64,000 nt of DNA from Ascaphus truei (Eukaryota > Chordata > Amphibia > Anura > Ascaphidae): assembly GCA_036426205.1 (NCBI GenBank), contig CM071568.1:37624770-37688769 (forward strand). Direction: 5' to 3'. Within the stretch, counting starts at the first letter, position 1. The number at the start of each line of letters is the position of its first letter. This document shows, in pieces, positions 8,636-57,557 of this stretch. The notes beneath the pieces were generated by a model. It was not told where the DNA came from. It saw nothing but the letters and a program-made list of their open reading frames with translations, and did not search any database. The translations under genes and the position numbers were made by a program.

Positions 8636-8640
8636 CTTGT

Positions 8641-20768: not shown

Positions 20769-20770
20769 AA

Positions 20771-20812: not shown

Positions 20813-20818
20813 CTAGTT

Positions 20819-23190: not shown

Positions 23191-23194
23191 ATAT

Positions 23195-23425: not shown

Positions 23426-23426
23426 G

Positions 23427-23835: not shown

Positions 23836-23839
23836 TAAT

Positions 23840-28670: not shown

Positions 28671-29935
28671 TTAAAGGATGCCAGCAATGAAGCAATGAAG
28701 AGCAATAATCTGTTGCTGAAGCAAGGTGGAAAGGCAGTGCAGGGTTTAAATAGGCCCAGCCAGAACATATTCGCAGGACAACAGAAGTAAACCCTGGAAA
28801 ACTGGAGTGGTCAAAAAAAAATGAATGCTGAGAAAATGGATGAGCATGCACAACCTTGGAAGGTCCCAAATGTACCTGCAGGACATTACACTTTGAAAGC
28901 TACAATCCTATGTCTACAGGTGCATTTTCTTTGTGGTCCGCAAACACAATCCCCTAAGCTGGTCTCCCAGGAAAATTATAAACATTTGCAATTGAGCCTG
29001 GACCTGCAGGAATTTCATTTTACAATCCAGCACAAAAAGTTCAGTGTCCACGGTAATGCCTGTGGACTTCAGCAACTAAAGTAACATCCATATGAGAATC
29101 CTTCTCATTCATAACACATGATATTTGTATAGCCTGGGTCCCCCCACGTCCTTCATCTGCCCCCTAAGTCTGGCTACAGTTGCGTCTGGCAGCGGAGGCT
29201 GGGGGAGAGCGTGGGGTGGTTGCTGCAGGTGACCTGATCGCTGGAGGTTACCGGCAGCTCCCTTTGCAGGGCGCCACCATCTTGGTCATGATCATGTATG
29301 CGCAGTGTAGTCATGCTAACGCATGCGCAGAGGTAGATCTGCAGGGGACTACAGCACCCCAAGATGCACTAGGACGATTGACCACATGGGCTGCAGCAGC
29401 CAATAGCGCGCCAAATTCTCCTGCTCAGAGATATAGATACTATTTGCACGCTGAGAGCATGCCAGTCAGAGCAAGGACATCACAGGGGTAGGGTGTGTAT
29501 GTGCAGGGTTTCAGTGGCCCCTGCAATAGACCATAAACCCCCGTTAGGCCCCAGCTAGGCCCCAACTCCCACATAGCTTGTGGTTGCAAATGGGACTTGC
29601 CCGTTAGACAGGGATTTTGCCCCACTTAGTACCATCAGTTCAGGTATACAGCCAGGACGCAGGTGCGGACTGGCGCTTCGGTGGCCTGGGACCAGACCAT
29701 CCTCTTGAGAGAGACTGTAATGGTGGAACACTCCTGCCGGACACCACCCAACGTGGAGACGGACTCAATGCTGACGGCATGGGACCGTATGGCCTACGTC
29801 TGCAATCTGCTTTACTAGGTGTCGGAGCACCCAGCAGGTACAAGTGCACCAATTGCCACACACACTGGTGGGACAGTGGTTTCTCACACACTTGGGTGGG
29901 AATTGCTACATGCTGGTAACGAGTGACTGGAGTAG
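28671..29935. other. Unassigned, partly GC-rich sequence after the duplication
   Basis: 28671-28985 is the end of the duplicated unit. 29100-29935 is unique GC-rich DNA with ATGCGCAG motifs (about 29295 and 29325) and frames up to about 108 codons on both strands that overlap one another. I see no recognisable domain and no splice-supported gene. Confidence 0.45.
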
Positions 29936-32452: not shown

Positions 32453-33000
32453 GCTGGGTGCTAGTGTGGTGCTACTGTAATTGGCTTTTGATGTTCCCCA
32501 CCTTTCTGAAAATTACCCTTGGGCGTTCTGATAAATGTCCTTGTAGTATAGGATCTTGTAATACTCAGTGCCAGTGTTTCTGAATAATTCTTTTAATTCT
32601 TTAGGAGTCCCTATTATACTATGTAATGAACGGGACCTCATAGCTAGTGACAGTTGGCTTGGTTTTGACACCAGCATCATGCTTCTATCTAGAAGGCTTG
32701 TTTTCATCTCTCTAGGGCGACTTTCTCAAGGGGGAAGTAAAATGGAGCTCAAAGGCTTGTTTTCACGAAGTCTACTTCCAATTTAGTCCTGTCATACTTC
32801 TCTCTAAGAATATATTCTTCAGGATTTCTGATTCTTCCTCAAATACGGCCCTATCGGTACGTTTCCGGCGTACACGTCTGAACTGCCCTATAGGTATATT
32901 CTCGATCCATTGTGGATGGTGGCAACTGGATTTTTGCAAATAATTATTACAATCGACTTTCTTGAAATATGTCTGTCTTAAGTTGGTTCTCTTCAAAGTA
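32453..33000 (-). pseudogene. PLE reverse transcriptase C-terminal part, decayed
   Basis: Minus-strand frames give 'LRQTYFKKVDCNNYLQKSS', 'HHPQWIENIPIGQFRRVRRK' and, in another frame, 'LHSIIGTPKELKELFRNTG'. These match the end of the Penelope-like reverse transcriptase (the YRKPT..N..L...S.HP....IP.GQ..R.RR region) and the thumb/linker. Between frames there is at least one shift. The PLE sequence stops abruptly at 33000, where the TA-flanked element begins. Together with 31171-31666 it is one element split by the LTR. Confidence 0.75.
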
Positions 33001-33276
33001 CAGTGGTGACCAACTTTATTCTAACTCGGCTAGCTCCGTGAATTTCAGAATATCCCGGTGATGTGCGGTTTTGTATCGTTTTCGCCCGGAGTGTATTGCG
33101 TTTTTTCGCTCCCGTGATTTAATCATTTTATTCCCTCTGTCTGCAATACTGCAATGCCGTGTAAAAACTCATGGGGGCGTTTGCGAGCTGTTGTCTTTGA
33201 AGTCTTATACCTTCGCGGTTCAACACAGTCTGTGCGTGCACGCGCAGTAATAGTAAAATTGCATATTTAATTTAAA

Positions 33277-34286
33277 TTGCCACGAGAAGGTCGCAATTTG
33301 CCATGCAATCCTGTCGCAACTAGGACTACATGGTGACCGAATCTGAGACCTCTAGGTTGAACAGAACCGGAGTTATGGGTTCCAGGTTTCTGCTCATTCT
33401 GACTTAGCCGTTTCAAAGCAGCGCGGGTTTCTCCGCCATTGCGCTCAATGGTAGGACCCTCCTCACCGGCGTGACCCTTTCTCGCCGCCATTACTGCTCG
33501 GACCCTGTTGGGGTCAAGTGAGAGGGTTCCTAACATCTAGGGGCAAAATGAATTTTATCTCTAGGTGCCCTAGAACAGAAGTTCCCACGCCAATTGACCT
33601 AGTTCCCACGCCAATTGCCGTAGTTCCTACGCCAATTGCGCGCTCATTGCTCTTTTTTTACAATGTTGCCGAGCTTGCGGCTTTGCGGTCAGACAGTAAA
33701 AAAACAGTGCAGCAATTCAACATGTTCTTTTATTGGTGGAGTCAGTACAAAAACATTTATTTACAAATACTGTACAATGTTGAAACATTTAAAGTGCACA
33801 GCAATTCTAACCATCAACACACAATAATACATACTGTACTGCAGCCTTTATTAAATTCTTCTGGCAGATTGAAATCGGAGAAACATGTATAAAATATTTG
33901 TAAAACATGGAGATACATGAAAAATGGACGTTTATTCTGTATGAATATTAATTTGTCTATAGAAAATCTACTGTTTGTTTTTGGTGCATGGGGCACAGGG
34001 AGTTAAAGTGACTTGCTTTTTATGTACTGTATTTGGGGGTTGTATTTGGGGGTTTATTCATCAAATTATTATGATGAACTGCCTTTTGAATTCAGTGTGT
34101 TAACTTTTCAGCCCACACCTCCAGAGTTTTTAATCCCTCCCTAGCCAAGCGTCAATCGGCTGAGTCACCCTAGCCTACCAACCCCCTCTCTCCACTGGGT
34201 CGTTAATCTTCTGCATATTGCCATTGTGTTCTTAAACCGCCCACAGCCGAGCTACAAAGACTCAGTACGCCTGTGTTTAATCACAC
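33277..34286. repeat. Long inverted repeat, left arm
   Basis: Reverse complement of 37035-37987, from the outer CCACGAGA/TCTCGTGG edge to the inner GTTTAATCACAC/GTGTGATTAAAC edge, with scattered indels. It contains AAT-rich and CpG-bearing parts but no credible gene. The arms enclose about 2.7 kb. Confidence 0.85.
33576..33640. repeat. 21-bp tandem repeat (CCACGCCAATTG units)
   Basis: Three units of about GTTCCCACGCCAATTGACCT. The same units recur at 36906-36970, inverted at 37655-37700, and degenerate at 38215-38280. Confidence 0.8.
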
Positions 34287-34830
34287 CATCCCCGCTTCCC
34301 CAACCCTTAGAGGCCTGTTTTGTTAACGGTAACGCTTTGGAAAATCCCCTCTCGAATTGGAAATGTAAATCTGATGTGCACAGCACAGTGAGAATTGAGA
34401 GTACACTGATATTGCATCAGGGTGTGAAAACATTTGTCAGTCAGTATGGTTTATAGTCACATGTTTTAAATACAATACAGTACATTCTTTAATATCTTTA
34501 AAATAAACATATATAAATATATGAAAACAACAAAAGAAAAGCAACCTTTTAAATAGCACACAGACATAAATGAAAGTGTAACAAAGGAAATTTTATTAAA
34601 GTGAATAAAACAGGGGATAAAGTTAAAAGGTGAGGGGGGCTCAACACTACCTAGACAATGTGGATCTGGAGGCAAGGGTCTAAGTTTAGATCCAAAGCAA
34701 GACATGCACAGGACACGGGAGGCTGTGTCTAAGCACACCTGTTTAACCATCAACCTACACTGAGATCTTGTGACCCCATGAAAAATCACCATATAATTTG
34801 TACAATGGTTGCATAGTGTGGGTACACAAG
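34287..34830. other. Unassigned sequence within the inverted repeat
   Basis: Loop side of the long inverted repeat. AT-rich, with a possible 108-codon chance frame on the minus strand. Nothing recognised. Confidence 0.4.
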
Positions 34831-35440
34831 TTGTAAAAGTAACAGAGTGAAAAATACGTCACCGCTCAGTGTGTAGATGTCACGGGCAAAAAGGTAGGTC
34901 AGAACTCCATGTCAGGTGGAAAAAGGTAGGGGCCCCCCTCAGCAAGACTCCCACTCCAACGTGTTTCGACGAGAAACTGTCTTCTTCTGGGAGTGGTGAG
35001 GGAGGAAATGAGCTAGATTTTATAGGGAAATTTTAGCAGTCAAATTCGCGCCATCAAATCAAAGAATTGCAAGCAGCTGTGAAGGGGAGGGGTGTCTGCT
35101 GGTAACACAGCGTCATTGGGTCTATTCTGAAAAGCTGTGGATGCCATTGGGCAATATAGGTCACATGATACTCACTACGTCTATCCCTATGTAAATTTGG
35201 GGGTGGTGCATGTGACGTCATGATGCTGTGAGCTTCTTAGCTCCACAAGCGACATGGAGCCTCCCACAGTGGCCCAAAGTAACCATAAGTCAGGGGGAAG
35301 TAAAATAAAGAATTGCAGCTAACATACAGCTGCCTGCTTCGTCCAGGAGCCGAATACACGAGTGATGCGCGTGACGTCATCGCGCTATGCGTGTATTGCC
35401 GTGCGGTTGCTATAGCAACCATGTAAACAATTTACATAGA
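34831..35440 (-). mobile_element. PLE-type terminal repeat
   Basis: Contains the hammerhead-like motif at 34953-34994 and flanking repeat-like sequence. The edges are approximate. It may belong to the PLE whose reverse transcriptase fragment lies at 36510 on the other strand, since PLEs often carry inverted terminal repeats. Confidence 0.4.
34953..34994 (-). ncRNA. Hammerhead-like motif, one core change
   Basis: Minus strand: stem I ACTCC/GGAGT (5 bp perfect), core CAGAAGA instead of CTGANGA, stem II GAC/GTC, GAAAC, ACGTT. The changed second core base probably destroys activity. Confidence 0.5.
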
Positions 35441-36509
35441 TAGTCCTGTCAAAACAGTATAGCAGGGCACACTTCCTACTTATTACAATAAAACGGAATG
35501 GTTGCTGCTAAAAGGGTATTTGCAGATGACTAATGATAACATACAAATACAGCTGTTATTACAAACAATATCTCTGTCATATCAGTCTATTGCTGAGCTG
35601 AGGGAGCACATCCTGACCAGAAGATCCTCCAATATCACATAGCATGTTGTTTAGGGATAAATCATGGATGTAGCCCCACAGAGTTTAATATTAGCAAAAC
35701 TGGCATACAGAGTGCTTAATACTACCCCTTCCATGACTATAAGGCACATATTTAGTTAAAAGTTGTTAGTACTAAGCGCATATCCATGCATGTAAATAAA
35801 TGTATGTATAAGATACATAAGTGCGGTTTCCAATGGCCATCTTAACATGGCAGATGACATCAAGGTTATTGTTGCAAACAGGTGTGTATCCTGTAGCAAA
35901 ATTACGTTAGTTGTGTATCTCTTGGTCACCAAACTTATACCGTAAGGTTAGAAAATGTGTCTTAGATGCATGTCACATAACACGCAAATGGCTGAGTGCC
36001 ATTGCATAATTCATGGATGGTGGCATAGATCTGTAGTGTAATTGCTTAAACTGCACTATTGCGGAATGGCAGAGGCATACAAACATTATTTACGCCACAC
36101 CGTAAGGCATTATCACTGTCTAAAAGCATAAGACCTGGCATGATTAGGTTCAAAATATTAATGTGAAAAAGAAAAAATGTGCAAAAGAAAAAATGTGCCC
36201 AATGTTGTCCAAACCATTTTATGGCATAGTTCTTTTTATTTAATAAATAGTTTTTATAGTCACTAGGAGTCTCTATGTTATACAGTATGTGCAGTGTGTG
36301 TATTAGTGTAGACCTGTTTTAACCCTACAGTGTTGCACTATGATCTGTGTCTGTTTGTGTTTTTTCCCCTATATGGCCTGTCAAGCAAGTGTGCTGATCC
36401 CCTGAGGAGTACAGGATTATCCAATGAACTTTTGGCGCCAGGTTTTTCTTTGTTTTCACTTTCAAAATATTAATGGTTCATAGCATGGATCTATTTTCAT
36501 AACTTACGC
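35441..36509. other. Unassigned sequence, possibly PLE 5' region
   Basis: AT-rich DNA upstream of the PLE reverse transcriptase fragment. It includes a CCTGAGGAGTACAGGATT motif near 36400. No open frame of note. Confidence 0.35.
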
Positions 36510-36838
36510 ATGGTGTCAAAGTTAATTCCCAAAATTAACCACCGGTTGACCATCCCACATTATATGTGCCGCTTCCTTGATTCATTTCTGTGCCTCGCAG
36601 TTGTTAATTTACCGTCTTATTTATGTGACACAATGGAGGTGCTGTCAAGGGTCGACTGCATCACGGTCGATGGGGATACTATCCTTGCGACTTGTGATGT
36701 GGAGTCCCTGTACACCTGCATCCCCCATCGGGAAGGTCTCCTGGCATCAAGATTCTACTTGTCTATGCAGGACATTACAGGTGACCTTCTCGATTTCCTT
36801 ATGGAATTATTACAATTCATACTCACCCACAACTATTT
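36510..36838 (+). pseudogene. Penelope-like reverse transcriptase fragment
   Basis: The frame reads 'VNLPSYLCDTMEVLS', then 'TILATCDVESLYTCIPHREG' and 'FLMELLQFILTHNYL'. This is the PLE finger/palm region around the first catalytic Asp (the CDVESLYTCIPH block). Reverse transcriptases of this family are about 700 residues; only about 110 are left. The expected next motif (a Q..GTAMG box) is missing because the frame runs straight into the repeat copy at 36839. Opposite in orientation to the PLE at 29936-33000, so it is a separate element. Confidence 0.8.
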
Positions 36839-37034
36839 GGGGTCAAGTGAGGGGGTTCCTAACATCTAGGGGCAAAATGATTTTTATTTCTAGGTGCCCT
36901 AGAACAGAAGTTCCCACGCCAATTGACCTAGTTCCCACGCCAATTGACCTAGTTCCCACGCCAATTGCGCGCTCATTGCTCTTTTTTACAATGTTGCCGA
37001 TCTATCGGCTTTGCGGTCAGGCAGTAAAAAAACA
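36839..37034 (+). repeat. Partial direct copy of the left inverted-repeat arm
   Basis: Matches 33512-33706 in the same orientation, including the 21-bp units, then switches at AAACAGTG to the inverted right arm. This junction looks like template switching or an incomplete gene-conversion or insertion product. Confidence 0.8.
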
Positions 37035-37987
37035 GTGTGATTAAACACAGGCGTACTGAGTCTTTGTAGCTCGGCTGTGGGCGGTTTAAGAACACAATGG
37101 CAATATGCAGAAGATTAACGACCCAGTGGAGAGAGGGGGTTGGTAGGCTAGGGTGACTCAGCCGATTGACGCTTGGCTAGGGAGGGATTAAAAACTCTGG
37201 AGGTGTGTGGCTGAAATAGTTAACAGCACTGTAATTAATTTGATGAATAAACCCCAAAATACAACCCCCAAATACAGTACATAAAAAGCAAGTCACTTTA
37301 ACTCCCTGTGCCCCATGCACAAAAAACAAACAGTAGATTTTCTATAGACAAATTAATATTCATACAGAATAAACGTCCATTTTTCATGTATCTCCATGTT
37401 TTACAAATGTTTCTCCGATTTCAATCTGCCAGAAGAATTTAATAAAGGCTGCAGTACAGTATGTACTGTATTATTGTGTGTTGATGGTTAAAATTGCTGT
37501 GCACTTTAAATGTTTCAACATTGTACAGTATTTGCAAATAAATGTTTTTGTATTGACTCCACCAATAAAAGAACATGTTGAAATGCTGCACTGTTTTTTT
37601 ACTGCCTGACCGCAAAGCCGCAAGCTCGGCAACATTGTAAAAAAAGAGCAATGAGCGCGCAATTGGCGTGGGAACTAGGTCAATTGGCGTGGGAACTTCT
37701 GTTCTAGGGCACCTAGAGATAAAATTTTGCCCCTAGATGTTAGGAGCCCCTCTCTTGACCCCAACAGGGTCCGAGCAGTAATGGCGATGAGAGAGGGTCA
37801 CGCCGGCGAGGAGGGTCCTACCATTGAGCGTAATGGCGGAGAAAACTTTGAACCGGCTAAGTCAGAATGAGCAGAAACCTGGAACCCATAACTCCGGTTC
37901 TGTTCAACCTAGAGGGCTCAGATTCGGTCACCATGTAGTCCTGGTTGCGACAGGATTGCATGGCAAATTGCGACCCTCTCGTGGCAA
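37035..37987. repeat. Long inverted repeat, right arm
   Basis: Reverse complement of 33277-34286. The CCAATTGGCGTGGGAAC units lie at 37655-37700. Confidence 0.85.
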
Positions 37988-38340
37988 CAGAACGGAGTCA
38001 GGGTAATGTTAAAGTTCAGGTTTCTGCCATTGACTTGCATGGCAGAAAAAAAGCCACTTTGGTAATGTGCTTTTAAACTGTCTTTTGGTACCTCCGGTTC
38101 CGGGGGTCGTGCAAGGCTGATATTTTGCCACTGTGGCAAGGGACCTTCCGCATGAGGGCAAGGCGAATTTCAACCCGCTCAGACCCACAGAACGGATTAT
38201 TTTAAATTATATTCGCGCAATTGGCGTGGGTACTACTTAGGGCCTCGGTCAAGTTCACGGCCAATTGGTGTGGGAACTTCTGTTCTAGGGCATCTAGAGA
38301 TAAAATTCTTTTTGCCCATTAATGTTAGGCACTGTATACC
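37988..38340. repeat. Third, divergent inverted fragment of the arm
   Basis: 38205-38330 again shows the GTGGGAACTTCTGTTCTAGG segment of the right arm, in degenerate form, after about 200 unique bases. Confidence 0.6.
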
Positions 38341-38406
38341 ACTGTACAGTATACTGTAGAAGACACATAATGAAATGATACTGAACATGTAGAATAAATG
38401 CATAGA

Positions 38407-38416
38407 TTTATTTATT
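38407..38416 (-). terminator. Poly(A) signals of forkhead gene 1
   Basis: Minus strand AATAAATAAA, about 95 bases beyond the start of the predicted last exon of the forkhead gene (from 38509). Confidence 0.5.
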
Positions 38417-38602
38417 CGGGTTTATTACACAGTATACTGTACGGCCGGAAAACATCAGCATACAGTACAATATTATCCATCGAAATCCCCCCATTAGCCG
38501 TTTTCTTTTCTGAGGAAAAACAAAAAAAAAAGTTTTAATGTACAGTTATGGTCAGCCCCCTAAAGAAGTACCCAGCCAGTCCCACCAAAATAATACGGCA
38601 AC

Positions 38603-39196
38603 TCACCATAGAAGTTCCCGTTCAGCTGGCGCCGGCGCCGGTCCACTGCCAGTCCAGCTTTCTTGATCATCCACGTCGATAGTCTGCAGCGGGACTAGTC
38701 CACCTGTAGTCAGCAGGTGAGGCTGGAAATCGCTTAGGTACATGCAAGCTTCATCAAAACTGCACGCGAAATCCGACTTAGACTCAGGTTTGTCACTGAC
38801 AGTGGGACCGTCATTGGAAGCCGGTGCCGGTGCTGGTGCTGGTGCATTGCTTGGCAGCGACTGTCGCTTCTTAGTTGTTTTTAACACGACCCTTCGCCTT
38901 TTGCCGCCTCCATGATCATAGATACGGGAAAAATCCGGTGATACACACCAATACCCTCCAACAAATTGGGGCTCAATACGGTGAAAACAGGGATCACTAC
39001 ATAACCTTTTCCTTACTGCACGCTTCCACGTATGAGGAGTTGGCAAAAATTTGTAAAAGTCATAGTTTTCGATAAAATACTGATAAATTTGAGCAACTGT
39101 TGCCATCTTATCATCTGTTGCATTAATCGCGGCACATATCAAATACGCGTAACTTCTGTCGGGTTTTTGGAAAGCGGGCTGCACTTGAACACTCAT
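38603..39196 (-). CDS. Transposon-borne forkhead (winged-helix) protein
   Basis: A 197-codon open frame. I start it at ATG 39194-39196 because the second copy (48855) starts at the same point; the frame is open further upstream without a better start. Residues about 11-110 are a forkhead domain: 'SYAYLICAAINATDDKM' (helix 1), 'IYQYFIENYDFYK' (helix 2), 'WKRAVRKRLCSDPCFHRI' (recognition helix and strand), 'GGYWCVSPDF' (wing 1), then a basic 'KRRRVVLK' tail. Typical forkheads have N and H in the WxNSxRHxL recognition helix; here these are R and K, so specificity should differ. A Pro/Ala linker and an acidic C-terminus, perhaps an activation region, follow. A GTGAGT donor at 38606 and a T-rich CAG acceptor at 38510 mark a 97-base intron; splicing places TG|A, a stop, at the junction. 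It probably binds element or host DNA in the nucleus. Confidence 0.8.
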   Translation of the reverse strand: MSVQVQPAFQKPDRSYAYLICAAINATDDKMATVAQIYQYFIENYDFYKFLPTPHTWKRAVRKRLCSDPCFHRIEPQFVGGYWCVSPDFSRIYDHGGGKRRRVVLKTTKKRQSLPSNAPAPAPAPASNDGPTVSDKPESKSDFACSFDEACMYLSDFQPHLLTTGGLVPLQTIDVDDQESWTGSGPAPAPAERELLW

Positions 39197-39406
39197 GGCG
39201 GGTGGGTCTCTGGAGAATACTGTAACTGAAACTGGTCTTTGTCTTTCTTTAATATGTATGAAAAGCCTAAATTGATACATTTTTGCAACCTCTTCCTTCA
39301 GTCTCAAGGCCAAGGCCAAGTTACAATAGCACACGTACAGTATAGTACAGTATATTTTTTAAACGAAACACCTGCAAGCCGACACATTACTGATTCGGCG
39401 CATTAC

Positions 39407-39613
39407 AATTCATGAATATCTGCCATCTGGCGGACACGCGAAGCATTGCAGAATATTATAATCCAAACCATTATCAATAAACGCATCAGCCGGGCATGAC
39501 CCGTGGCTGGGAACGCAAAAGGAGCGCGGCATGCTCCAGGTGAACAGCGTGACATTCCAGGAACAAGCCAGGTAAAAGCCGGTGATTTGTTAGAATAAAA
39601 GCTGCCGCAGCAG
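39407..39613. mobile_element. Right terminal region of element 1, likely forkhead promoter
   Basis: Shares ATTACAATTCATGAATATCT and a following 200 bases with 40262-40494 and 49028-49268. It lies directly upstream of the forkhead gene in both gene-bearing copies, so it may hold the promoter as well as transposase-binding ends. It ends GCCGCAGCAG before TA 39614-39615. Confidence 0.65.
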
Positions 39614-39713
39614 TACTGTAGTGCCAACGGTTATTCTCACACAAACCAGTGGCAATCGCCAAAAAGACCCACGTACATGCTGGGTTCATGCTGGGTATAT
39701 GCTGGGTCTAGTT

Positions 39714-40004: not shown

Positions 40005-40091
40005 GGTTGTACCCCATTGTTTGCTATGTCTGACTGACAAAAATTTATATTTCCTTTGGTGACACCATTCCTTAATCCCTTGCCTATGCTA

Positions 40092-40494
40092 CACTGGCGA
40101 CACACTTTATTCGAGCTAGGCTAGTCCCACGAATTCGGGTATACTCGGGTGTATTGAGGTTTGTGACTGTTTTCTGCCTGAGTGCATTGCGTTATTTTCC
40201 AGGCAGGGATTGAAGCATTTTATTCCCGCTGGCTGCAATACTGCACAGTATATATATATATATATATACTGCATTACAATTCATGAATTTATGCCATCTG
40301 GTAGACACGCGAAGCGTTGCAGCCTATTAAATCCTAATCATTATCATTGAACAGATCAGCCGCCCGTCAGCCAGGCATGAACCATGGCTGGGAAGGCAAA
40401 CGCAATGGGGCTTGTCAGAGGTGAGGAGCGGTGCATTCCAGGTATCTGCCAGGTACATACTGGGTATTTGCTCGAATAAAGTGTGCCGCAGCAG
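40092..40494. mobile_element. MITE: deletion derivative of the forkhead-carrying family
   Basis: TA target at 40090-40091 and 40495-40496. Left end CACTGGCGACACACTTTATT; inverted right end CTGCTGCGGCACACTTTATT. Its first 160 bases match 33001-33165 and its last 230 match 39407-39613 and 49028-49268. A (TA)n run replaces the middle. It has no gene, but it links the left and right ends of the family and shows the family has been mobile. Confidence 0.75.
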
Positions 40495-40496
40495 TA

Positions 40497-43188: not shown

Positions 43189-43674
43189 GGGCCTCATGCA
43201 GAGAGCATAGAATTTTAAAATTGGCGAATTTCATAAAAAGTAGCTTTTTTGGAGAGTTTTATTCTCCATATGCAGAAAAGTGCGAATTCTGCTATGTTTA
43301 ACATGGATGCGTGTGGCGAGTTTAAATTGGCGAGATGCGCGCTTCAGAAAACGTTGTAAAAACAATCGCGCCTTTTTTCCCCCTTTACTATAGGCGGCGA
43401 GCGCCATCTTGCATCTTTTCCGGCGCGGCAAAAATGGAGAATCGCGCATTTTCTTGGCGGAACAGCGACTACATGCCGTTCGACCTCTCTGCATTCGGAG
43501 GTTTTAAAAAACGGCGAGATGGAGGGTCTCGCCAGCCGCGAAGGCGAGTTTTAGCAATAAGAAAAAACAAAATGGCGCGTTTTTCGTAACTCGCCATTTT
43601 CTGCCGGTTTCTGCGCGAAATTGTTATACAAAAATGGCGAATTTCGAAATAACGATGCTCTCTGCATGAGGCCC
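43189..43674. mobile_element. MITE with GGGCCTCATGCAGAGAGCAT termini
   Basis: The terminal inverted repeats are identical for the first 20 bases (GGGCCTCATGCAGAGAGCAT), then continue imperfectly through an AAATT.GCCA region. Flanked by TA at 43187-43188 and 43675-43676. The 486-base interior has no conserved gene. The TA target fits a Tc1/mariner or related MITE. Confidence 0.8.
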
Positions 43675-43676: not shown

Positions 43677-44801
43677 CGTCTGTGTCTAGCAGGTAGCCGA
43701 CAATATCTACCAGGTGCTCCGATGACAAGCGTTGTAAGATTAAATGCAGCATATAGTTCCAAACTGCTTTTGTATCTCAAATACAGTTTAAAATAAAAGC
43801 GTGACAGTAACATTGGAGGATTCAGGCAGCGTTAAGAGAAACAAATAACATTAAGATGACCCACCCCCCTTTTATACATGATTAAAAAAAAAAGAGGTTT
43901 CATTATCGGTTTGAACTAATCTCTTACCTTGCCCCTGTTTTTGACAAATCAATAATAAACAACATTTATTCTTGTTTTTCCCCTTATTGCGGACATTTTC
44001 ATATGTAATTGGACATATCATTGTGGTTGCTTATTTATGAAAACAGTTATCCGGTCTTGCGTATTAGATGTTTTGTCATATTTTTACATTTGCTAAAAGC
44101 AGAGTACAGATCTTGAAGAAATGCAAACACTGAGTATAATCTATTTCTATCTTCTACTTTGTAACTATTTCTGTGTTCATTTATCTCAATGCCTTATTCT
44201 TTCCTATGGTGGTTACTTGTATGGAAATTTATAAGGTTACTTATTTGTTAGTATGTTATATGTTAATATTCTTATCTGTTAGTCCCTAAAGCCGCATTTC
44301 CTCTTACTTTTTGTGTGTGTTTTTTAATAAATGGTGCAGTTCCTTACATTTATGGTAATGCAATTATCTAAGCTGCCGATAGATTCGTTCTCCCATGATT
44401 GATCAGCAATGATCCTGCATTCCAAGGCACACAATATGGCCGCCTATTTCAAAAGAGCAAGTTGTGTGGCTTCCAAAATGGCTGCTATAGCAACCCAAAG
44501 AAACATTTACATTAAAAATTATTAAAACGGGCATAAAGAGGGAAAACATTTTTTTAATCAAGTAAGTATTATCTAATACTACACCACTGATTTATATATA
44601 TATATGAGAACAAAGGATTTTGAATTAAATGTTGCTTTGTGTATATATGTATTGATATTTCTAAATTGTCTACTGTAATTACTGGCCACTACTGTATGTC
44701 CTGGGCACAGAGTTAAGACAAAGAATACATGGTTACAAATACAGTTACATAAACGTATAAATGTAAGGGTATACATTATATACAAGACATTGCATGCACA
44801 G
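43677..44801. other. Unassigned sequence left of the transposase
   Basis: AT-rich. I searched it for the left terminal repeat of the element-1 family (CACTGGCGACACACTTTATT) and found none. The left boundary of the three-gene element is therefore unknown. Confidence 0.5.
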
Positions 44802-45764
44802 TTAAAGATAATTTTTTGAGGGTTTCACCACTTTTCGGATATTATCCTTCAGCTGATGCCAGACCATTTCGATAGCATTGAAGTCTGGCGATCTGTCATT
44901 GGAGGGGAAAAAAAAGGAGAATTAGTTAAAGAGATACACAGTAAACAGAGGGAAAAATGTGACACGGTTACCGCACTTACTCCGCTGGCGTCTTTACCCA
45001 GTTGATACGGCAGGCAAGAATATGCGCAGTTGATGCGATGAGCTTCGGATCGTTGTCCTGGTAGAAACGGTGACCATCTGGGAATTCACGTGTGATGTAT
45101 TCCACAATCTCAGGCACTGTTTGCTCTTGGAAAAAAGCTTTATTCATGATTCCTGTAAAAAAAAAAGGAGAACTGCTCAAAATAATGCACACTACAGTAG
45201 TACAGTACAGTGCATAAGGCAACAGCATGTGACTTTGTGCATTATTATACTGTACCATCAAAGATAACGATGCATCCTGGTCCACGCTTAGAGATGGCAC
45301 CCCACACATGAATCTTTACTGGGTGTTTTGGACGCGGTTTCATAGATATGCGTCCTTTTTTGTGGAAAGCAAAGGTTGCAAATCTCTCCAGCGATAAAGT
45401 AGACTCATCAGTAAAGATGCAATCCTGAAAAGTTTCGCCACTATCAATCCATGCCTGTGCCTGGACCACTCTCTTGATCTTGTTGACGTCCCTTATCATA
45501 GGGTACGCTCTGTAATGACAAGGAATAATTTTATAGGTACAGTACAGTTTATTAAACCACACATTTACCTCCTGTACTGTCCAGTACTAACCTCACACGT
45601 CCATATTTCCATCCAATTCGGCGTCTCATCTTCTTGATGCTGGTCTCGGATACGGTTAGATTGTGATTTTTCAGCAAAGTGTCTTTGTCCCTTAAGGCAC
45701 TCTTCTCATCATTCTCTTCACTTATTTGGTCAACCAGAAGAGTTGTGCGAAAGGCGGCAGCCAT
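44802..45764 (-). CDS. Intron-containing Tc1-like DDE transposase
   Basis: Four exons: 45592-45764, 45256-45509, 44981-45152 and 44802-44892. The introns are 82, 103 and 88 bases, all GT-AG with T-rich acceptors, and joining restores one frame of 229 residues ending TAA. The 'SIKKMRRRIGWKYGRVR' part resembles the end of the second HTH. 'IRDVNKIKRV' follows. The catalytic triad is present: D92 in 'IFTDES', D175 in 'YQDNDPK' and E208 in 'SPDFNAIEMVW'; 'KPRPKHPVKIHVWGAISKRG' is typical of the family. Thirty-two residues lie between D175 and E208, where Tc1 enzymes usually have 34. Tc1 proteins are about 340 residues; the first HTH and the usual C-terminal tail are missing, so further exons or truncation are possible. 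ATG 45762-45764 is the first in-frame start. Confidence 0.85.
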
Positions 45765-46162
45765 TTCCAAGCCAAGGCCAAAGCGAAAGGCTAAGGCTAA
45801 TAAAGAAAACCTTCTGACGACTCCAAAGGCTAAGGCTTTTAAGAAGCCTTATTATGTCAAGAAGAAATTTGGTGATGTACACTAAAAGCAAAACAAATGG
45901 TCACCTTCTCCATCAGCCCCCGCTGCTGCTGCCGCTTTTCTCCCAGAAACCCAGAGGACACCTCCTCCATCACTCCTTGACGACGCTGCTGCTTCTCTCC
46001 CGGAAATCCACAGGCCACCTTCTCCATCACTCCTCGACGACTCTGTCGCTTCTATCCTGGAAATCCACAGGGCACCTTCTCCATCACTCTTCGACGACTC
46101 TGTCGCTTCTCTCCCGGAAAAACACAGGACACCACCTACTAGTCTGATTAACTCTGTCCAGT
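45743..46162 (+). pseudogene. Basic and Pro/Ser-repeat region upstream of the BEN gene
   Basis: One frame reads 'KPRPKRKAKANKEN', 'TPKAKAFKKPYYVKKKFG', a TAA at 45883-45885, then in the same frame four repeats of about 'PPSPSLLDDSVASLPEIHR' to a stop at 46160-46162. The Lys-rich part resembles linker-histone or AT-hook-type DNA-binding tails by composition only. No ATG begins it; the start could lie in an unseen exon. It overlaps the first exon of the transposase on the opposite strand. The internal stop suggests decay, unless an intron removes it. Confidence 0.45.
45950..46140 (+). repeat. Coding minisatellite, about 57-bp units
   Basis: Four imperfect units with CACCTTCTCCATCACTCCTC...GACGACTCTGTCGCTTCT cores, each a multiple of three bases, so unit changes keep the frame. 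This suggests expansion under coding constraint. Confidence 0.75.
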
Positions 46163-46198
46163 GAACACGTTTACCCTTTCACTGCCTATCACTCCTCA

Positions 46199-46564
46199 AT
46201 GACTTCTCTCCAGGGAACCCCCATCTCATCCTCTTCAGCACCCATCCACCCAGATGTCCACAGCACCCCATGCACAAGATCCAGCTCGTTAGACCGCATG
46301 CTGAATGGGTTAAGTGTCGATATCCCTGGGAACTCTATGCTGGGAAAGATAGATCTTCTTTTAGAGACCATGCTAAATATGGATCAATGGAGGGAGAAGA
46401 TGGATCAGCGGATGGAGAAGATGGATAAGCGCATGGAGAAGATAGAGACTGACATAGCGGGGATACATAATTTGCTTGGAGTTCATGCCCCTGTATCTCG
46501 GATGCCAGAGCAGGAGGGTGGCATGGATGGGATGATGGGACCTTCAACCTTCCATCACCAAGCG
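46199..46564 (+). CDS. Coiled-coil segment of the BEN-type protein
   Basis: Opens at ATG 46199. A Ser/Pro-rich start is followed by 'GKIDLLLETMLNMDQWREK' and repeated EKMD-RMEK units, a strong coiled coil suited to dimerisation. The frame then gives 'GIHNLLGVHAP'. It shifts by one base relative to the BEN frame somewhere near 46530-46560, where the other frame reads 'PSPSAPPPSEEYMFMY'. Either an indel or a splice joins them. With 46588-47127 this looks like one gene. Confidence 0.55.
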
Positions 46565-46587
46565 CACCCCCTCCATCAGAAGAATAT

Positions 46588-47127
46588 ATGTTCATGTATG
46601 CCGTTGACGAGGATGACATGACAACCTCGTCAAGACCACGCCAGGAGACAACACTGCCAAGGCGACCAATGCAGGAGGAAAGCATCCTCCCAGACAACCT
46701 ACCCTCACCCACCACCACAAGCACACCCACTCCCAAAAGAACACTTGCTCCCAAAATCCAACCCACATACGCTTGCATTGAGACGGTGCCCGACATCATC
46801 CCGCGCGAGCTGCCCCAGCCACTCAGGGAGAAGTATAGGTTTTCAAGTGCTGATATACCCCAGAGGCATGCCATGTTAATTTTCAAGCACCACGTGCCCT
46901 ACCCGGTGTACTGCGGGTGGGCCCACAATGTGATCTATGAAGGGAATCACGACAAAAAGGCTCTTCCTGAAAATTTAAGAAAGACTATTGTGGAGGAATT
47001 GCGGCTCTATTTTACAATTACTGATCCTTTAATGAAAGTCGTGAGAGACTCCATTAATGGCATTTTGCGGCATACAAGGCATCGGCCCTGGAAGGACAAT
47101 CTGCTGGGGATCCAATTCGCTGCGTGA
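46588..47127 (+). CDS. BEN-like domain protein of the transposon
   Basis: A 179-codon open frame to TGA 47125-47127; the frame is open upstream of ATG 46588. The first 80 residues are low-complexity Pro/Thr/Ser. The C-terminal 80 residues resemble a BEN domain: 'HAMLIFKHHVPYPVYCGW', 'KKALPENLRKTIVEELRLYF' and 'VVRDSINGILRHTRHR', matching the KK-L-P-K---I----- and ---INSK-R--R pattern. BEN domains bind DNA or mediate chromatin contacts, and also occur in some viral and mobile-element proteins. It lies between the divergent transposase and the convergent forkhead copy. AATAAA signals lie at 47237 and 47332. The assignment is by pattern, without a profile search. Confidence 0.6.
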   Translation: MFMYAVDEDDMTTSSRPRQETTLPRRPMQEESILPDNLPSPTTTSTPTPKRTLAPKIQPTYACIETVPDIIPRELPQPLREKYRFSSADIPQRHAMLIFKHHVPYPVYCGWAHNVIYEGNHDKKALPENLRKTIVEELRLYFTITDPLMKVVRDSINGILRHTRHRPWKDNLLGIQFAA

Positions 47128-47831
47128 TTGGTCATCTGTTAAAATGTTTATTTATTTCTGATTTGTTCATTGTTTTAAATTGTATTGTAATATGTTTGTG
47201 CTTACAGGATTTTTTTTTACTTACAGTACTCCACAAATAAAAATAATGTTGATTGTTGTAGATTGTATTCATACTGTCAATGTTTTTGCTTACTGGACAC
47301 CATTAATGTTTTTTTACTTACTGCACCCAACAATAAAACAAATTGCTGCTTGTTTTAAATATACCTGTATGTTTTTACTTACTGGACACTATTAATGTTT
47401 TTTTACTTACTGTACCCACCAGTAACTATGTACAGTAGTGTCCTGTACTATACAGTTCCATGAGGCATACTGTACAGTACTGTACAGTATACTGTAGGCA
47501 TGCACATTACAGTACATCAAAACAGTATTAAAACGCATTATCGGCATTAGTATTATTATTAGAACACACATACTGTACTGTAATACATGTACAGAATAAA
47601 TGCATACTTTTTATTTTTGGGGTTTATTATACAGTACAGTATGTAAAAAAGTATTGTATACTTTATGAAAAAAACAGCATACTGTTTCAGGTTTTCTATA
47701 AAGCTCACAGTTATTCTATCCTAATCAATAAAAATGGCACTGATTCAAATTCAGCAGTGTGCAAGCATTGTTACAAATAGCGGTATTATCCATCGAAATC
47801 CCTCCATTTGCCTGATGACAAAGTTTATTTT
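47128..47831. other. Convergent 3' regions of the BEN and forkhead genes
   Basis: Two AATAAA signals (47237, 47332) serve the plus strand. A repeated TTACTTACTG-A-CC-CCA-TAAT motif lies at 47280-47420, then TACTGTACAG repeats. From about 47560 the sequence matches 38386-38520 of element 1 (forkhead 3' exon and poly(A) region) on the minus strand. Confidence 0.6.
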
Positions 47832-48172
47832 CTGAGGAAGAAAAATAAAAGTATTACTGTAATGGTTAGTTCAAATTAATCAGTCCCCTAAAGAAGTTCC
47901 CACAGTCAGTCCCCACAGTCCTCTCGGTCAGTCCCAACAATAATTTTCTCAGGTGGGCGTCTCTTGTTCACATACTGTACACGCATGCACCTACAGTAGA
48001 TGTGATGAGACGCATATGTGTTTCAACAAGGTTCCAATACGCATGCGCCTAGCTGTCCACCAATTGTTCAGTATCTACTGCTGCTCAGCCAATGATATTG
48101 CTAGACTACATTTTGGCGAATTGTAACTAAAAGAATATAACTACTGTAAATAACCATAAGCAAAGCGATTGA

Positions 48173-48855
48173 TTACAGGAGAATCACTTTAATGTGCATT
48201 GATATTGATATGGTAAAAAGAGAATTGCTGTAAATACTGTACGGCAGCTGTACCCACCATAGACGTTGCCAATCGGTTGGCAGCAAGCCACTGCCAGTCC
48301 CGTCGTCTTGATTATATACGTAGTTGACAGGTGACAGTGGGCCCGCTACACCTGTAGTTGACAGCTTATGTAGCTGGAAATCGTTTTGGTACATGCAAGC
48401 TTGCTGGTATCTGTAGGCGGCAGGTATCCAGGCGGGGACAGATAGCAAGGGTTGCCGGTCAGCAGGTTTTCACTGACGGTCGGACCGTTATTGGAAGCCG
48501 GTTCTGGCGCTGGCGCATTTCTTGCCTGGGACTGACAATTCTTAGTTGGTTTTACCATGACCTTTCACCTTTTGAAGTCTCCATGATAAAAGATACTGGA
48601 AAATTCTGGCGCAACACACCAATACCCTCCTCTAACTCCGGGTGCAGGATCAATACGAAAAAAACACGGATCGATACATAACTTTTTCCTTATTGCACGC
48701 TTCCACACACAAGCATCTGGTGAAAATTTGTAAAAGTCATAATTGTCGATTATAATTGTGGCCATCTTCTCATCTGTTGCATTAATTGCAGCCCATATTA
48801 AATAAGCGTACGTTATGTCAGGTTTTTTGAACACGGACTGCAGTGATGCACTCAT
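48173..48855 (-). pseudogene. Second forkhead gene, decayed
   Basis: ATG at 48853-48855 begins the same N-terminus as gene 1. The domain keeps 'TYAYLIWAAINATDEKM', 'WKRAIRKKLCIDPCFFRID' and 'GGYWCVAPEF'. Eight residues (the helix 2 start, VAQIYQYF in gene 1) are deleted in frame. A stop or frameshift follows 'FYHGDFKR' at 48565; the Pro/Ala linker and C-terminus continue in two other frames. Substitutions inside the domain are mostly conservative (R/K, V/I, D/E), which suggests past purifying selection. The 3' intron is also conserved: ATG|GTGGGT donor at 48257 and CCTCAG acceptor at 47832, enlarged by an insert of about 300 bases. The donor again sets up the TG|A stop. Confidence 0.75.
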
Positions 48856-49027
48856 CTCTGAACTCTCAGGACAATAAAAAACCAGACACAGCGCATTTAG
48901 TTTTTAATATGAAAAGCCTAAATTGATACATTATTGTAACTTCTTCAGTACCAAGGTCAATTCACAATGGACCACTGTTTTTAAACACCTGCAAGTCGAC
49001 ACATTACTGAAGCACGTGTACTGTACT

Positions 49028-49268
49028 GTAGTGTACACATTAGAATTCATTACAATTCATGAATATCTGCCACCTGGCGGATACAAGAAGAATTGCAACA
49101 AATTCAATCCGAACCATTATTTTTAAACAGATAAAGCGAGGGTGACGCCGGCATGAATGCGACATGAATATGGCATGAATTTCGAATGAACGCGGTGAAG
49201 CACGTGGCATTCAGAAAAAGTCACTAAAAAATATCCTAGAAGTTTTAAAATAAAAGGGGCCACGGCTT
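49028..49268. mobile_element. Right terminal region of the three-gene element (element 2)
   Basis: Matches 39407-39613 and 40262-40494 (start ATTACAATTCATGAATATCT; end AAATAAAAGGGGCCACGGCT before TA). It is placed beside the forkhead gene exactly as in element 1. The element probably runs left from here through the transposase to an unknown boundary near or beyond 44800. Confidence 0.6.
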
Positions 49269-49270
49269 TA

Positions 49271-53380: not shown

Positions 53381-53440
53381 TCATGTTTTTATTTATGCAT
53401 GTTTATGTAATCCTTTAACATGTATTTGTATATTGGTGAC

Positions 53441-54134
53441 ACAAAAGAAAGGGGTAAGTCACTCCTCTGGCCCGCCATGTCCCTGGTAGCTGAGGTTGTG
53501 CTTTGCTGCATTCTGTTTCTTTCTTAGGGGGAACAGAAGTTGCTTCTGGCAGTTCAATGTGCGCACTCCCCCTGGTGCACTCTAGAGGAGGGTCTCGTAG
53601 ACTTGTAGGCTGACCCAGCACAGGGGCGGAGTGAGTCATAGTCCATGAGGGCGCGGCTCCAGCTTTCGCGCCAACCTCCCCAACAGGGTGGGGTTTCCCC
53701 ATTGGCGCCAATCCTGGCCAACAATCAGCAAACTGCAAAGTAGCTGGACTTTCTGCAGCTGGCCTACGCGGTGTCCCGGGAACGCGGGAACCGCCATTTT
53801 GGTTAGTACTGTCTTTCTTCATTACATTTGAGGTAGCGTTTGGCTGTTTGTATATTGAATGATAACAAAGTCCATTTCGTTCCTCCCATCTAGCAACACT
53901 GTCGTCCTCACTAGTCTCGAGGTTACTTTCCCGAGAGCATAGACAGGACAAGCCCGGCGCAGCCACGGCTGTCACGCCAGTCTCCAACAGGCTCACAAAA
54001 GTCTCTTCTGTAACTTACTTTCTCCCTCCCATGGATGGTGAAAATAAAGTAACAACTTTTGGCGATCTCTAATAACTCTTGCCGACACTGGACGCACATA
54101 GGGGGTTCCCCGGGCAATAGGCACAATATGAGCA
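53441..54134 (-). pseudogene. LTR-element internal unit A (truncated)
   Basis: Equals 55770-56462 of unit B at high identity. On the minus strand it carries the first 190 codons of the unit frame ('GMTAVAAPGLSCLCSRES'-type start, 'LETSEDDSVARWEERNGL') and is cut off at 53441, where AT-rich sequence begins. It is separated from unit B only by a 344-base insertion. Confidence 0.7.
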
Positions 54135-54470
54135 AAACAAAAAACAAAAGAACAAGGCGCACAACGCACATAGTGTATTAAAGTATAAAATGTGACTTTA
54201 TGGTTAAAAGTAAATAATTCTGCGTACATAAAGTGAGAATAATTTACTTTTAACCATAAAGTCACATTTTATACTTTAATACACTATTGCGTTGTGCGCC
54301 TTGTTCTTTTGTTTTTTGTTAGTTCCTGGGGTGTCGAGCCACCCCCAGGACCCACGATTAGTGCCAGATCCACATTTAAGGTCCACAACATTGTTTGTTT
54401 AATCACGGTGCACTGTTCACTTGATATTTGTTGTCACTAGTTATTAGCTGCGCACTATCACTCTTTTCCA
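54127..54470. mobile_element. 344-bp insertion with long palindrome and 13-14 bp target duplication
   Basis: ACAATATGAGCAA is present on both sides (54125-54137 and 54470-54482) but only once at the intact unit junction (about 56452-56464). The insert starts with a 190-base palindrome: AACAAGGCGCACAACGCA and its inverse flank a GTACATAAAGTGAGAATAAT loop. A GC-rich part with CCACCCCCAGGACCC follows. The size and AACGCA-type motif resemble PLE ends, and PLEs make variable target duplications, but no hammerhead is seen. Confidence 0.75.
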
Positions 54471-56325
54471 CAATATGAGCAACATTACCCAAATTCCCAG
54501 ACGACACTCCCAATGTTCCTGGGAACCCAAAATTTGACCCAAGGCTCTTAGGCTCACACCCCACCATAACAGTACGATTGTCATCATTAGTGCAGTATAA
54601 CATTTGTTGCATAGACATTTCTCTCCCCGATCCCTCATCGGAGGCAAAACAGTCACCCCAGTCCAGATTTTCCCCAGTCCATTCTTCAGAAGTGGCTCGG
54701 GACTCCCCAGACAACCCTTGACTAGACTGGGACCCATAGGACAAAGTGACAGGGGCAGGGGTTTTAACTATGGCCGGGGGTTGGACATAGGGAAACACTG
54801 CCGGCATACGCGGGGCTACGACCCGCAACTTCTCGCTACCTTGCCCAGTACCATCGGACTGGCACTCCGGTTCACCCGTGTCCGTGTTCCCAGGCTTCCG
54901 CAGGGCCTGCCGGATGTTCCCGGCCCCAGGCGACCGGGTACAGCTGCTTGGCCGCGAGGACACGGCCATCTCTCTGGACTCGCCGCCATCTTGCGTTGGG
55001 TTCCCAACCGGAACCTCTTCCTCCAGAACGACATCCGCCACCGGAAGTGATGGTTCTGCTCTCCGCTCCGTCCGGGCCTGGGCTCGGCCTTTCTCCACCA
55101 TTTCCACTACTGGCGCCTGTGGGGGGTTAGGAGGTTCCTCACCACTCCGCTGGCTTGCGATGGGTTCCTCTGTGGTAGGCTGTACTGGCCGTTGTAGGGC
55201 ACACGGGCCTACATCAGGGTCCGCAGCAGATGGGATAAATGTCTCTTTATCTTCAGCTTCACTTGTGTGGTCCGCCGGCTGGCGCATCACCACAGCTGGT
55301 TGACTACTGTCTTCAGTAGTACAGGATGGGGGTAGGGACATCTCCGCAGGGGAACAGCGTCGGGGCGCTTCGCATTCACTGGTGGCCATCGGCCTGAAGC
55401 GGTCCTGCTCCGGCTGTACCAGTGGTAGCGATCCCCCTTCTCCCTGGGCAGTCACCTTACCCTTCGTTGATTCCGTCAGGAATGGCTCCATCAACTGGGG
55501 TTCCGGTTTTGGAACCGGATCTGGAGCCGTCTCGGTCATCGAGGCTTGGAACTCCTCACGCTTAGGCAGATAAGGGCTAGACACAAGCTGGTTTGCTCCT
55601 TTTGCAAAGAAAGTAGCTCCCCAAACAAGTTCTTTACCCAGAGATACACAATCAGAGTCCTCACACCTCAAGCTGGTGATTCCGTCATTGGATACTTCCC
55701 GGAATCCTTTAGGCAATGAATAACAGGCAAAGATCATATCACCCTTCCTCACTTTATGTATACACAGGCACAAAAGAAAGGGGTAAGTCACTCCTCTGGC
55801 CCGCCATGCCCCTGGTAGCTGAGGTTGTGCTTTGCTGCATTCTGTCTCTTTGTTAGGGGGAACAGAAGTTGCTTCTGGCAGTTCAATGTGCGCACTCCCC
55901 CTGGTGGACTCTAGAGGAGGGTCTCGTAGACTTGTAGGCTGACCCAGCACAGGGGCGGAGTGAGTCATAGTCCATGAGGGCGCGGCTCCAGCTTTCGCGC
56001 CAACCTCCCCAATAGGGTGGGGTTTCCCCGTTGGAGCCAATCCTCGCCAACAATCAGCAAACTGCAAAGTAGCTGGACTTTCTGCAGCTGGCCTACACGG
56101 TGTCCCGGGAACGCGGGAACCGCCATTTTGGTTAGTACTGTCTTTCTTCATCACATTTGAGGTAGCGTTTGGCTGTTTGTATATTGAATGATAACAAAGT
56201 CCATTTCGTTCCTCCCATCTAGCAACACTGTCGTCCTCACTAGTCTCGAGGTTACTTTCCCGAGAGCATAGACAGGACAAGCCCGGCGCAGCCACGGCTG
56301 TCACGCCAGTCTCCAACAGGCTCAC
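54403..56325 (-). pseudogene. Internal unit B frame of the LTR element (640 codons)
   Basis: The longest open frame in the window. It is Pro/Ser/Glu-rich, with no zinc knuckle, protease, RT or integrase motif. The frame opens at 56325 with GTG, and a TAA lies just upstream, so no natural ATG begins it; in unit C the same frame continues upstream through an ATG-containing segment. The last 21 codons come from the inserted element at 54127-54470. I read it as a gag-like or accessory frame of an LTR retrotransposon whose unit was tandemly copied, not a host gene. The unrepaired 5' stop makes expression doubtful. Confidence 0.6.
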
Positions 56326-56452
56326 AAAAGTCTCTTCTGTAACTTACTTTCTCCCTCCCATGGATGGTGAAAATAAAGTAACAACTTTTGGTGATCCCTA
56401 ATAACTCTTGCCGACACTGGACGCACATAGGGGGTTCCCCGGGCAATAGGCA

Positions 56453-57557
56453 CAATATGAGCAACATTACCCAAATTCCCAGACGACACTCCCAATGTTC
56501 CTGGGGACCCAAAATTTGACCCAAGGCTACTAAGGTTCACACCCCACCATAATAGTACGATTGTCATCATTAGTGCAGTATAACATTTATTGCATAGACA
56601 TTTCTCTCCCCGATCCCTCATCGGAGGCAAAACAGTCACTCCAGTCCAGATTTTCCCCAGTCCATTCTTCAGAAGTGGCTCGGGACTCCCCAGACAACCC
56701 TTGACTAGACTGGAACCCATAGGACAAAGTGACAGGGGCAGGGGTTTTAACTATGGCCGGGGGTTGGATATAGGGAAACACTGCCGGCATACGCGGGGCT
56801 ACGACCCGCAACTTCTCGCTACCTTGCCCGGTACCATCGGACTGGATCTCCTGTTCACCCGTGTCCGTGTTCCCAGGCTTCCGCAGGGCCTGCCGGATCT
56901 TCCCGGCCCCAGGTGACCGGGTACAGCTGCTTGGCCGCGAGGACACGGCCATCTCGCTGGACTCGCCGCCATCTTGCGTTGGGTTCCCAACCGGAACCTC
57001 TTCCTCCAGAACGACATCCGCCACCGGAAGTGATGGTTCTGCTCTCCGCTCCGTCCGGGCCTGGGCTCGGCCTTTCTCCACCATTGCCACCACCGGCGCC
57101 TGTGGGGGGTTAGGAGGTTCCTCACCACTGCAGGACTTTCTGCAGCTGGCCCACGCGGTATCCCGGGAACGCGGGAACCGCCATTTTGGTTAGTACTGTC
57201 TTTCTTCATCACATTTGAGGTAGCGTTTGGATGTTTGTATATTGAATGATAACAAAGTCCATTTCGTTCCTCCCATCTAGCAACACTGTCGTCCTCACTA
57301 GTCTCGAGGTTACTTTCCCGAGAGCATAGACAGGACAAGCCCGGCGCAGCCACGGCTGTCATGCCAGTCTCCACCAGGCTCACAAAAGTCTCTTCTGTAG
57401 CTTGTTCTTCTTCCATGCACAGGTCATATGCGTGTTCCTCGTTTGCCCGCCATCCTGGACTTTCTGCGCTCTGCAGATCCTCCATTCTGACGGTTCTCTC
57501 TAGAGGAGGGGCACGTTCTACCAAGGAGTGGTTCTGACTCTGTGCTGAACTACTCAC
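56453..57557 (-). pseudogene. Internal unit C (5'-most unit, 0.93-kb deletion)
   Basis: Matches unit B but lacks B's 55146-56078, with the break at CCTCACCACT / CTTTCTGCAGCTGG. The deletion shifts the frame after 'GPAAESPAVVRNLL'. Upstream it keeps the original start region ('MEDLQSAESPGWRANEEHA', 'MEEEQATEETFVSLV'), which A and B lack. So C marks the true 5' end of the coding region, while A and B are tandem copies joined through 'GNLGNVAHIV|PIARGTPYVRP'. Confidence 0.65.

Follow-up and report, generated by a model that had tools for sequence, protein, structure and literature searches.

Can a Tc1/mariner transposon, a member of a superfamily of textbook minimal transposons, carry a forkhead gene and a further accessory gene beside its transposase, and if so, what might these genes do for it? 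The question is raised by an interval within positions 37,624,770 to 37,688,769 of contig CM071568.1 (assembly GCA_036426205.1, forward strand) of Ascaphus truei, a stretch of 64,000 nucleotides that is called the window here and numbered from its first letter. In this interval, a transposase gene, a divergently oriented gene designated B, and a forkhead gene lie together. The interval, designated element C, is a dead, left-truncated remnant of a three-gene Tc1/mariner transposon, and we are highly confident that this transposon is a DD32E member of the superfamily that is abundant in Ascaphus truei, in which we infer partner roles for the forkhead and B proteins. Most Tc1/mariner members are 1.3-2.4 kb long and have one gene. 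The parts of element C, including the helix-turn-helix (HTH) regions of its transposase, are as follows.

44812 to 49270: element C, a degraded left-truncated copy, bounded by the start of homology in 8 of 8 aligned genome copies and by the mapped right end
44802 to 44892, minus strand: last transposase exon, with the catalytic E (DDE_3 match, E 7.8e-05, under the curated cut-off)
44981 to 45152, minus strand: transposase exon with the second catalytic D (QDNDPK), by homology
45256 to 45509, minus strand: transposase exon with the first catalytic D (FTDES), by homology (weak DDE_3 match, E 0.036)
45592 to 45746, minus strand: transposase exon with the second HTH (Tc3_2/RED-like), by homology (HTH_Tnp_Tc3_2 matched in relatives P0006 and P0007, under the curated cut-off)
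45746 to 45747: deletion junction, at which element C lacks about 0.7-1.4 kb found in other copies, with the first HTH exon and the beginning of the B gene among the lost sequence
45747 to 47127, plus strand: B gene, here a pseudogene, with a basic N-terminal part, repeats, a coiled coil, and a helical C-domain
48225 to 48855, minus strand: forkhead gene, with the domain at 48567-48855 and the tail further left
49048 to 49135: subterminal block (88 bp) conserved at the right end, sharing 81% identity with element A and 78% with element B, two related elements in the window
49246 to 49270: right terminal inverted repeat with TA at its end, by end alignment

The evidence that these genes form a single unit comes from other copies of the element. 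The 2.82-Gb Ascaphus truei assembly was searched with a transposase exon as the query, yielding 9,538 first-look candidates, 150 of which were scored (all with E < 1e-51 and at least 92% identity). The window copy ranked first, and the copies at ranks 2 to 21 were fetched as stretches of 7.5-10 kb and searched with exon, domain, and end queries, with features counted on the expected strand and side. Among these 20 copies, the first HTH exon was matched in 16 (weakly in L036, E 0.003, and L048, E 1.8e-4), the B gene was found in 16, and forkhead was found in 15, as the domain in 12 and as the tail only in three. B and forkhead occurred together in 13 copies, and both together with the HTH exon in 12. 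The HTH exon preceded B in all 15 copies having both, B preceded forkhead in 13 of 13, and in every copy where it was readable, the order ran from the transposase (minus strand) through B (plus strand) and forkhead (minus strand) to the right end. The right end was located in 10 copies and the left end was matched in eight, seven of which are true left ends, the match in L034 being a nested ends-only derivative of the element B type described below.

Both ends were located in four units, each end starting with TA and the inverted repeats matching at 17-19 of 26 positions. In L043 (8,618 bp) and L041 (8,415 bp), inverted TA-starting ends enclose all three genes; the right end of L041 (8568) was set by hand from its match, as the automatic pick was the end of a nested derivative. 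The remaining two are L044, with 4,827 bp between its ends, no HTH exon, and only the C-domain of B, and L031, with 6,954 bp between its ends and no forkhead. Given the shared gene order and the single pair of ends enclosing the trio in L041 and L043, we read the genes as parts of one transposon. This bears out the initial annotation, which had proposed that the trio lies between matching TA-flanked ends; neither genes that never occur together nor unrelated flanking ends were seen among the 20 copies. The fullest copies are about 8.4-8.6 kb long and consist of a TA and inverted end, about 2.1 kb of apparently non-coding sequence, a transposase of five exons including the first HTH exon (minus strand), B (plus strand), forkhead (minus strand), and the right inverted end with its TA. 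The left 2.1 kb was also examined for a further gene by frame lengths and stops across copies, and none was found: the longest frames there are 80-116 amino acids in 7 of 9 copies, longer in L045 and L047, and 165 amino acids in L035, which is outside those nine; all 12 frames tested are interrupted by stops in at least some copies, and across six left blocks no frame is stop-free. That similar left-region frames are seen in several copies reflects the homology of the DNA.

Aligned with its relatives, element C proves to be a wreck. Homology to the genome copies starts at 44812 in all eight loci aligned out of the 20 fetched, and position 44802, initially taken as the element boundary, is only a stop codon. 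Missing from element C are about 2.3 kb on the left, among them the left end and the last ~50 amino acids of the transposase, for which no match was found left of element C in the window. The TA site at 44287 was considered as a left end (17/25) and rejected as a chance match, as four unrelated TA sites tie with it; the genome copies show that the left end was lost. At 45746/45747, seven of the eight aligned copies (L031, L033, L037, L041, L043, L045, and L047) have an extra 0.7-1.4 kb, which in L043 spans 3368 to 4113, while the eighth, L044, has a deletion of its own at the matching position. Element C is not functional, as the end of the transposase is lost, the first HTH exon is gone, the B frames are broken (by a stop near 45886 and by changes of frame near 46140 and near 46535), and forkhead, which also has an 18-nucleotide in-frame deletion, is ended early by a premature stop. 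A repeat at 44694-44814, which has a match in L033 (7662-7774), lies directly at the point of truncation, 44812, and just left of element C, 43189-43674 is a likely miniature inverted-repeat transposable element with perfect 20-bp inverted repeats GGGCCTCATGCAGAGAGCAT.

The transposase itself, judged by its DDE_3 core, two HTH regions, and TA ends, is a member of the Tc1/mariner superfamily. The four minus-strand exons in the window, annotated from the outset as a DDE transposase, match Tc1-like transposases of Ascaphus, Xenopus, coelacanth, and fish; introns 1 and 3 are bounded by GT...AG, and the AG of intron 2 was read off the window sequence. A protein search gave 385 of 500 candidates at E <=0.001, the best among the 120 matches listed being Ascaphus truei LOC142494660 (87% identity over 85% of the query), with Xenopus laevis LOC121396371 at 56% identity and a coelacanth protein at 52%. 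The window exons give only weak matches below the cut-off, while DDE_3 is matched at E 1.4e-13 in the relative P0006, a full-length Xenopus transposase to which the Ascaphus relative P0007 aligns across the first HTH exon. The profiles matched are the DDE_3 and Tc3_2 models, and the Harbinger profile was not matched. TA and inverted repeats, as in Tc1/mariner, were present in 4 of 4 two-ended units, with the TA duplication read from the ends alone.

The second D and the E are separated by 32 residues in the window copy and six relatives (from Xenopus, coelacanth, carp, and three others), or 7 of the 96 rows scored from a set of 121 (25 not scorable); the spacing is 34 in 86 rows and 35-36 in three. 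Known Tc1/mariner spacings range from about DD29 to DD41, within which DD32E falls, and to our knowledge 32 with E is not among the named ones. In a tree, the window copy falls inside an Ascaphus clade of five rows (support 100/100), which Xenopus and Pseudophryne rows join with weaker support (89/83). An Ascaphus gene model called "muscarinic acetylcholine receptor M3 isoform X2" (P0012) matches the transposase exons over nearly all of its 160 amino acids, and its receptor label is probably an annotation artefact.

The minus-strand forkhead gene was recognized at the start, and its domain assignment is secure at the profile level: Pfam PF00250 is matched at 48565-48903 with E 1.1e-10 and 41.9 bits in element C, and with 60.2 bits in element A, against a cut-off of 27. 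The element sequences have the winged-helix domain in common with FOX proteins such as FOXC2 and HNF3 but differ in the recognition helix, which reads WKRAIRKKLC as opposed to WQNSIRHNLS in FOXC2. The position of the FOX Asn is Arg in all six aligned element sequences and that of the FOX His is Lys in five of six and Glu in P0001. We take these Asn and His residues to be base-contacting positions in FOX proteins, and as both are replaced, the forkhead target is probably not a FOX site. At E <=0.001, its relatives are four proteins, all from Ascaphus truei, in a search that needs shared 5-residue words and could miss distant relatives. A genome search with forkhead gave 15,429 candidates, of which 150 were scored (93-100% identity), and a stop lies inside the domain in 8 of these 150 best-scoring loci. 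Copies of the type found in element A are highly abundant and almost the same in sequence, often with an open frame of about 210-225 amino acids, and could represent a non-autonomous subfamily that carries forkhead alone. The pair of forkhead genes from elements A and C differs by dN 0.23 and dS 0.46 (nonsynonymous and synonymous divergence), and a fold model of the element A forkhead was of low confidence (mean predicted local distance difference test score, pLDDT, 41).

For the B gene, the initial call holds in that the gene is on the plus strand, divergently oriented, and has a coiled-coil-like stretch, while its assignment to the BEN family found no support. The conserved, alpha-helical C-domain (46771-47124) looks BEN-like by eye; the searches did not confirm this and the label is not used here. 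For B, Pfam gave no BEN match at E up to 10 (seven rows) and nothing convincing otherwise, including no zinc-finger or kinase domain. PDB sequences gave no BEN match and Foldseek, run on a low-confidence model of the C-domain (mean pLDDT 50), gave no match under 0.001; VIA-align returned nothing for BEN. The silence of these searches is no evidence against BEN. The five relatives of B at E <=0.001 are all Ascaphus truei proteins, under the same 5-residue-word requirement, by which distant ones could be missed. In element C, 57-bp tandem repeats at 45899-46137 correspond to variable 19-amino-acid repeats in the protein. One predicted Ascaphus protein, P0129 (LOC142493368), joins the N-terminal part of B to a Myb/SANT-like domain and is probably a gene-model fusion, possibly with a neighbouring element.

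Comparison of the copies shows selection on parts of the two accessory genes. The accepted test of the ratio of nonsynonymous to synonymous substitution rates (dN/dS) used nucleotide alignments in all six frames, with 10 non-coding blocks (60 frames) as the control. The ratio was 0.43 for the forkhead domain (0.28-0.65; 13 loci), 0.53 for the B C-domain (0.36-0.79; 14 loci), 0.55 for the B coiled coil (0.34-0.88; 13 loci), 0.51 for the first HTH exon (0.30-0.89; 15 loci), and 0.40 for the second-HTH exon (0.19-1.02; 20 loci), while the upper bound fell below 1 in 3 of the 60 non-coding frames. Ratios were also low in the reverse (-1) frame of the coding regions, which shares its third codon positions with the coding frame. 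In-frame stops numbered 2 in 1143 codons for the forkhead domain, 2 in 857 for its tail, 2 in 1200 for the B coiled coil, 7 in 1515 for the B C-domain, and 1 in 873 for the HTH exon, or 0.1-0.5% of codons, compared to at least 1.1% in 60 of 60 non-coding frames (lowest, 8 in 699). The forkhead domain and the two B domains are thus under purifying selection; the forkhead tail is open, yet without constraint at the amino acid level. In addition, k-mers of the forkhead part and of element A recur in the transposase part to a degree reached by 0, 1, and 0 of 542 overlapping control windows for K = 6, 7, and 8.

As initially noted, the right terminal region of element C recurs in two further elements of the window. 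They end at 39615 and 40496, have TA at each end, and are as follows.

32999 to 39615: element A, a related unit with a TA-flanked left end (32999-33276) and a right end
38606 to 39196, minus strand: forkhead gene of element A, an open frame of 196 amino acids (Pfam E 2.1e-16)
40090 to 40496: element B, 407 bp, non-autonomous, with left and right ends only

The interior of element A is largely replaced by other or rearranged repeats: at 33277-38340 there are inverted repeats (33277-34286 and 37035-37987) as well as segments with homology to the left region and spacer of the full transposon. Element A may therefore be a derivative with forkhead that arose by rearrangement, and not a nested insertion. 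L034 contains a copy of element B, with 97-98% identity in the end matches, and as such ends-only derivatives exist, the ends seem to be enough in cis.

What the accessory proteins do may be approached through known systems. The Ascaphus element resembles other Tc1/mariner transposons, such as those of Xenopus laevis (LOC121396371), coelacanth, and fish, in its two HTH regions, DDE_3 core, TA ends, and inverted repeats, and differs from them in its DD32E spacing, five exons, length of 8.4-8.6 kb, and two extra genes. According to the passages on the TBE elements of Oxytricha drawn on here (PMC4724952), these are three-gene Tc1/mariner transposons with one gene reversed and all three under purifying selection; their accessory genes encode a 22-kD protein of unknown function and a 57-kD zinc-finger/kinase protein, and their ends carry telomere repeats. 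Our element is like TBE in having three genes with one opposite in orientation, but it has a forkhead gene and no zinc-finger/kinase gene detected by Pfam, while the TBE passages report no forkhead. In Harbinger transposons, as described in the part of PMC9179366 used here, a Myb-like partner binds to the transposon ends and is imported together with the transposase. An extra transposon-encoded DNA-binding protein would be the common feature, in a putative role for the Ascaphus element, whereas Harbinger has a transposase of another superfamily and a single Myb/SANT partner in place of forkhead and B. For transposons with forkhead or BEN genes, no relevant paper was found in titles and abstract openings, a search that did not cover Repbase, which may list the family. 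What appears to be new is the anatomy with forkhead and B, while three-gene Tc1/mariner elements (TBE) and end-binding partners (Harbinger) were already known.

By analogy with Harbinger, we infer a partner mechanism for forkhead and B. The transposase would bind the terminal repeats through its own two HTHs and cut, while forkhead and B would act in trans as element-encoded DNA-binding partners. Their likely target would be the conserved 88-bp subterminal block, or else they may act on transcription of the element, and, like Harbinger's Myb-like protein, they might help to assemble or regulate the reaction. We propose tentatively, with a likelihood that falls only a little short of even, that a captured and re-specified forkhead and B became dedicated transposition partners in a vertebrate lineage of three-gene Tc1/mariner elements, with the transposase HTHs on the outer repeats and the partners on subterminal blocks in an elaborate end complex, the element growing to 8.6 kb, and derivatives supplied in trans. 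If true, transcription-factor domains can be taken on as partners by Tc1/mariner elements, much as Myb was by Harbinger and other proteins were by the TBEs of ciliates. The transposon also illustrates how forkhead-type coding sequence can reach >100 loci in one vertebrate genome (150 were scored).

Several points weigh against this interpretation or temper the data behind it. The copies were picked via their transposase match, and 7 of the 20 lack B or forkhead. The strand rule excluded several features that look like neighbouring or nested elements: forkhead and the right end are inverted in L049, L046 has another forkhead with a right end, both inverted, L032 has an inverted left end, and L036 has a weak tail match in inverted orientation. 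B or forkhead matches on the opposite side of the transposase, the control, were 0 in 20, over only about 2.2 kb on that side as against about 6.9 kb on the side with the genes. The forkhead tail, at a dN/dS of 0.93 (0.64-1.46; 11 loci), is unconstrained, the ratio of 0.03 for the transposase exon used for picking copies is biased by that picking, and the k-mer signal is not present in the B part. A first dN/dS test, based on protein-level alignments, gave 0.48 for the forkhead domain, 0.63 and 0.59 for the B coiled coil and C-domain, 0.62 for the forkhead tail, and 0.25 for the transposase; it was rejected as biased low since the ratios for frames of the presumed non-coding left region were 0.55-0.76, and 11 of the 12 upper bounds were below 1. 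It is the only source of a value for the B N-terminal part, 0.87, which indicates no constraint.

The unconstrained forkhead tail and B N-terminal part are what would be expected if both genes were passengers captured once from the host, or if their targets were transcription or silencing in the host and not transposition, and the ends-only derivatives (element B and the copy in L034) imply that the genes are not needed in cis. Such a history is possible, at somewhat less than an even chance; a pure passenger would need neither the constraint on, and depletion of stops from, the forkhead domain and two B domains nor the retention of both genes together in 13 of 20 copies. Far less room is left for two or three separate elements, one with the transposase and B and another with forkhead, inserted side by side. 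The window copy without a left end, element A with forkhead between its ends and no transposase seen in the window, and the great number of A-type forkhead copies would all fit such a juxtaposition, but the constant order in 13 of 20 copies and the single end pair around all three genes in L041 and L043 largely refute it, and we consider it very improbable. More improbable still is the explanation suggested in the initial annotation, in which a transposase without a first DNA-binding domain of its own relies on forkhead and B for binding the ends. The domain is indeed absent from the window copy, and four of the 20 fetched copies also have no match to its exon, but the exon is found in 16 of 20 copies, where it is under constraint and has a single stop in 873 codons, and in P0007. 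As stated, then, that explanation is refuted, and the argument that the partners stand in for a missing domain is not supported; in the reading that we prefer, they would act alongside a transposase with both of its HTHs.

Elsewhere in the window, direct repeats with 97-98% identity occur at 53440-57403, within or next to an open frame of 646 amino acids (54406-56343, minus strand) that has no Pfam match at E 0.01. A stretch of about 14-15 kb is also duplicated in tandem in the window, at 164-14762 and 14910-28987, with 88% identity.

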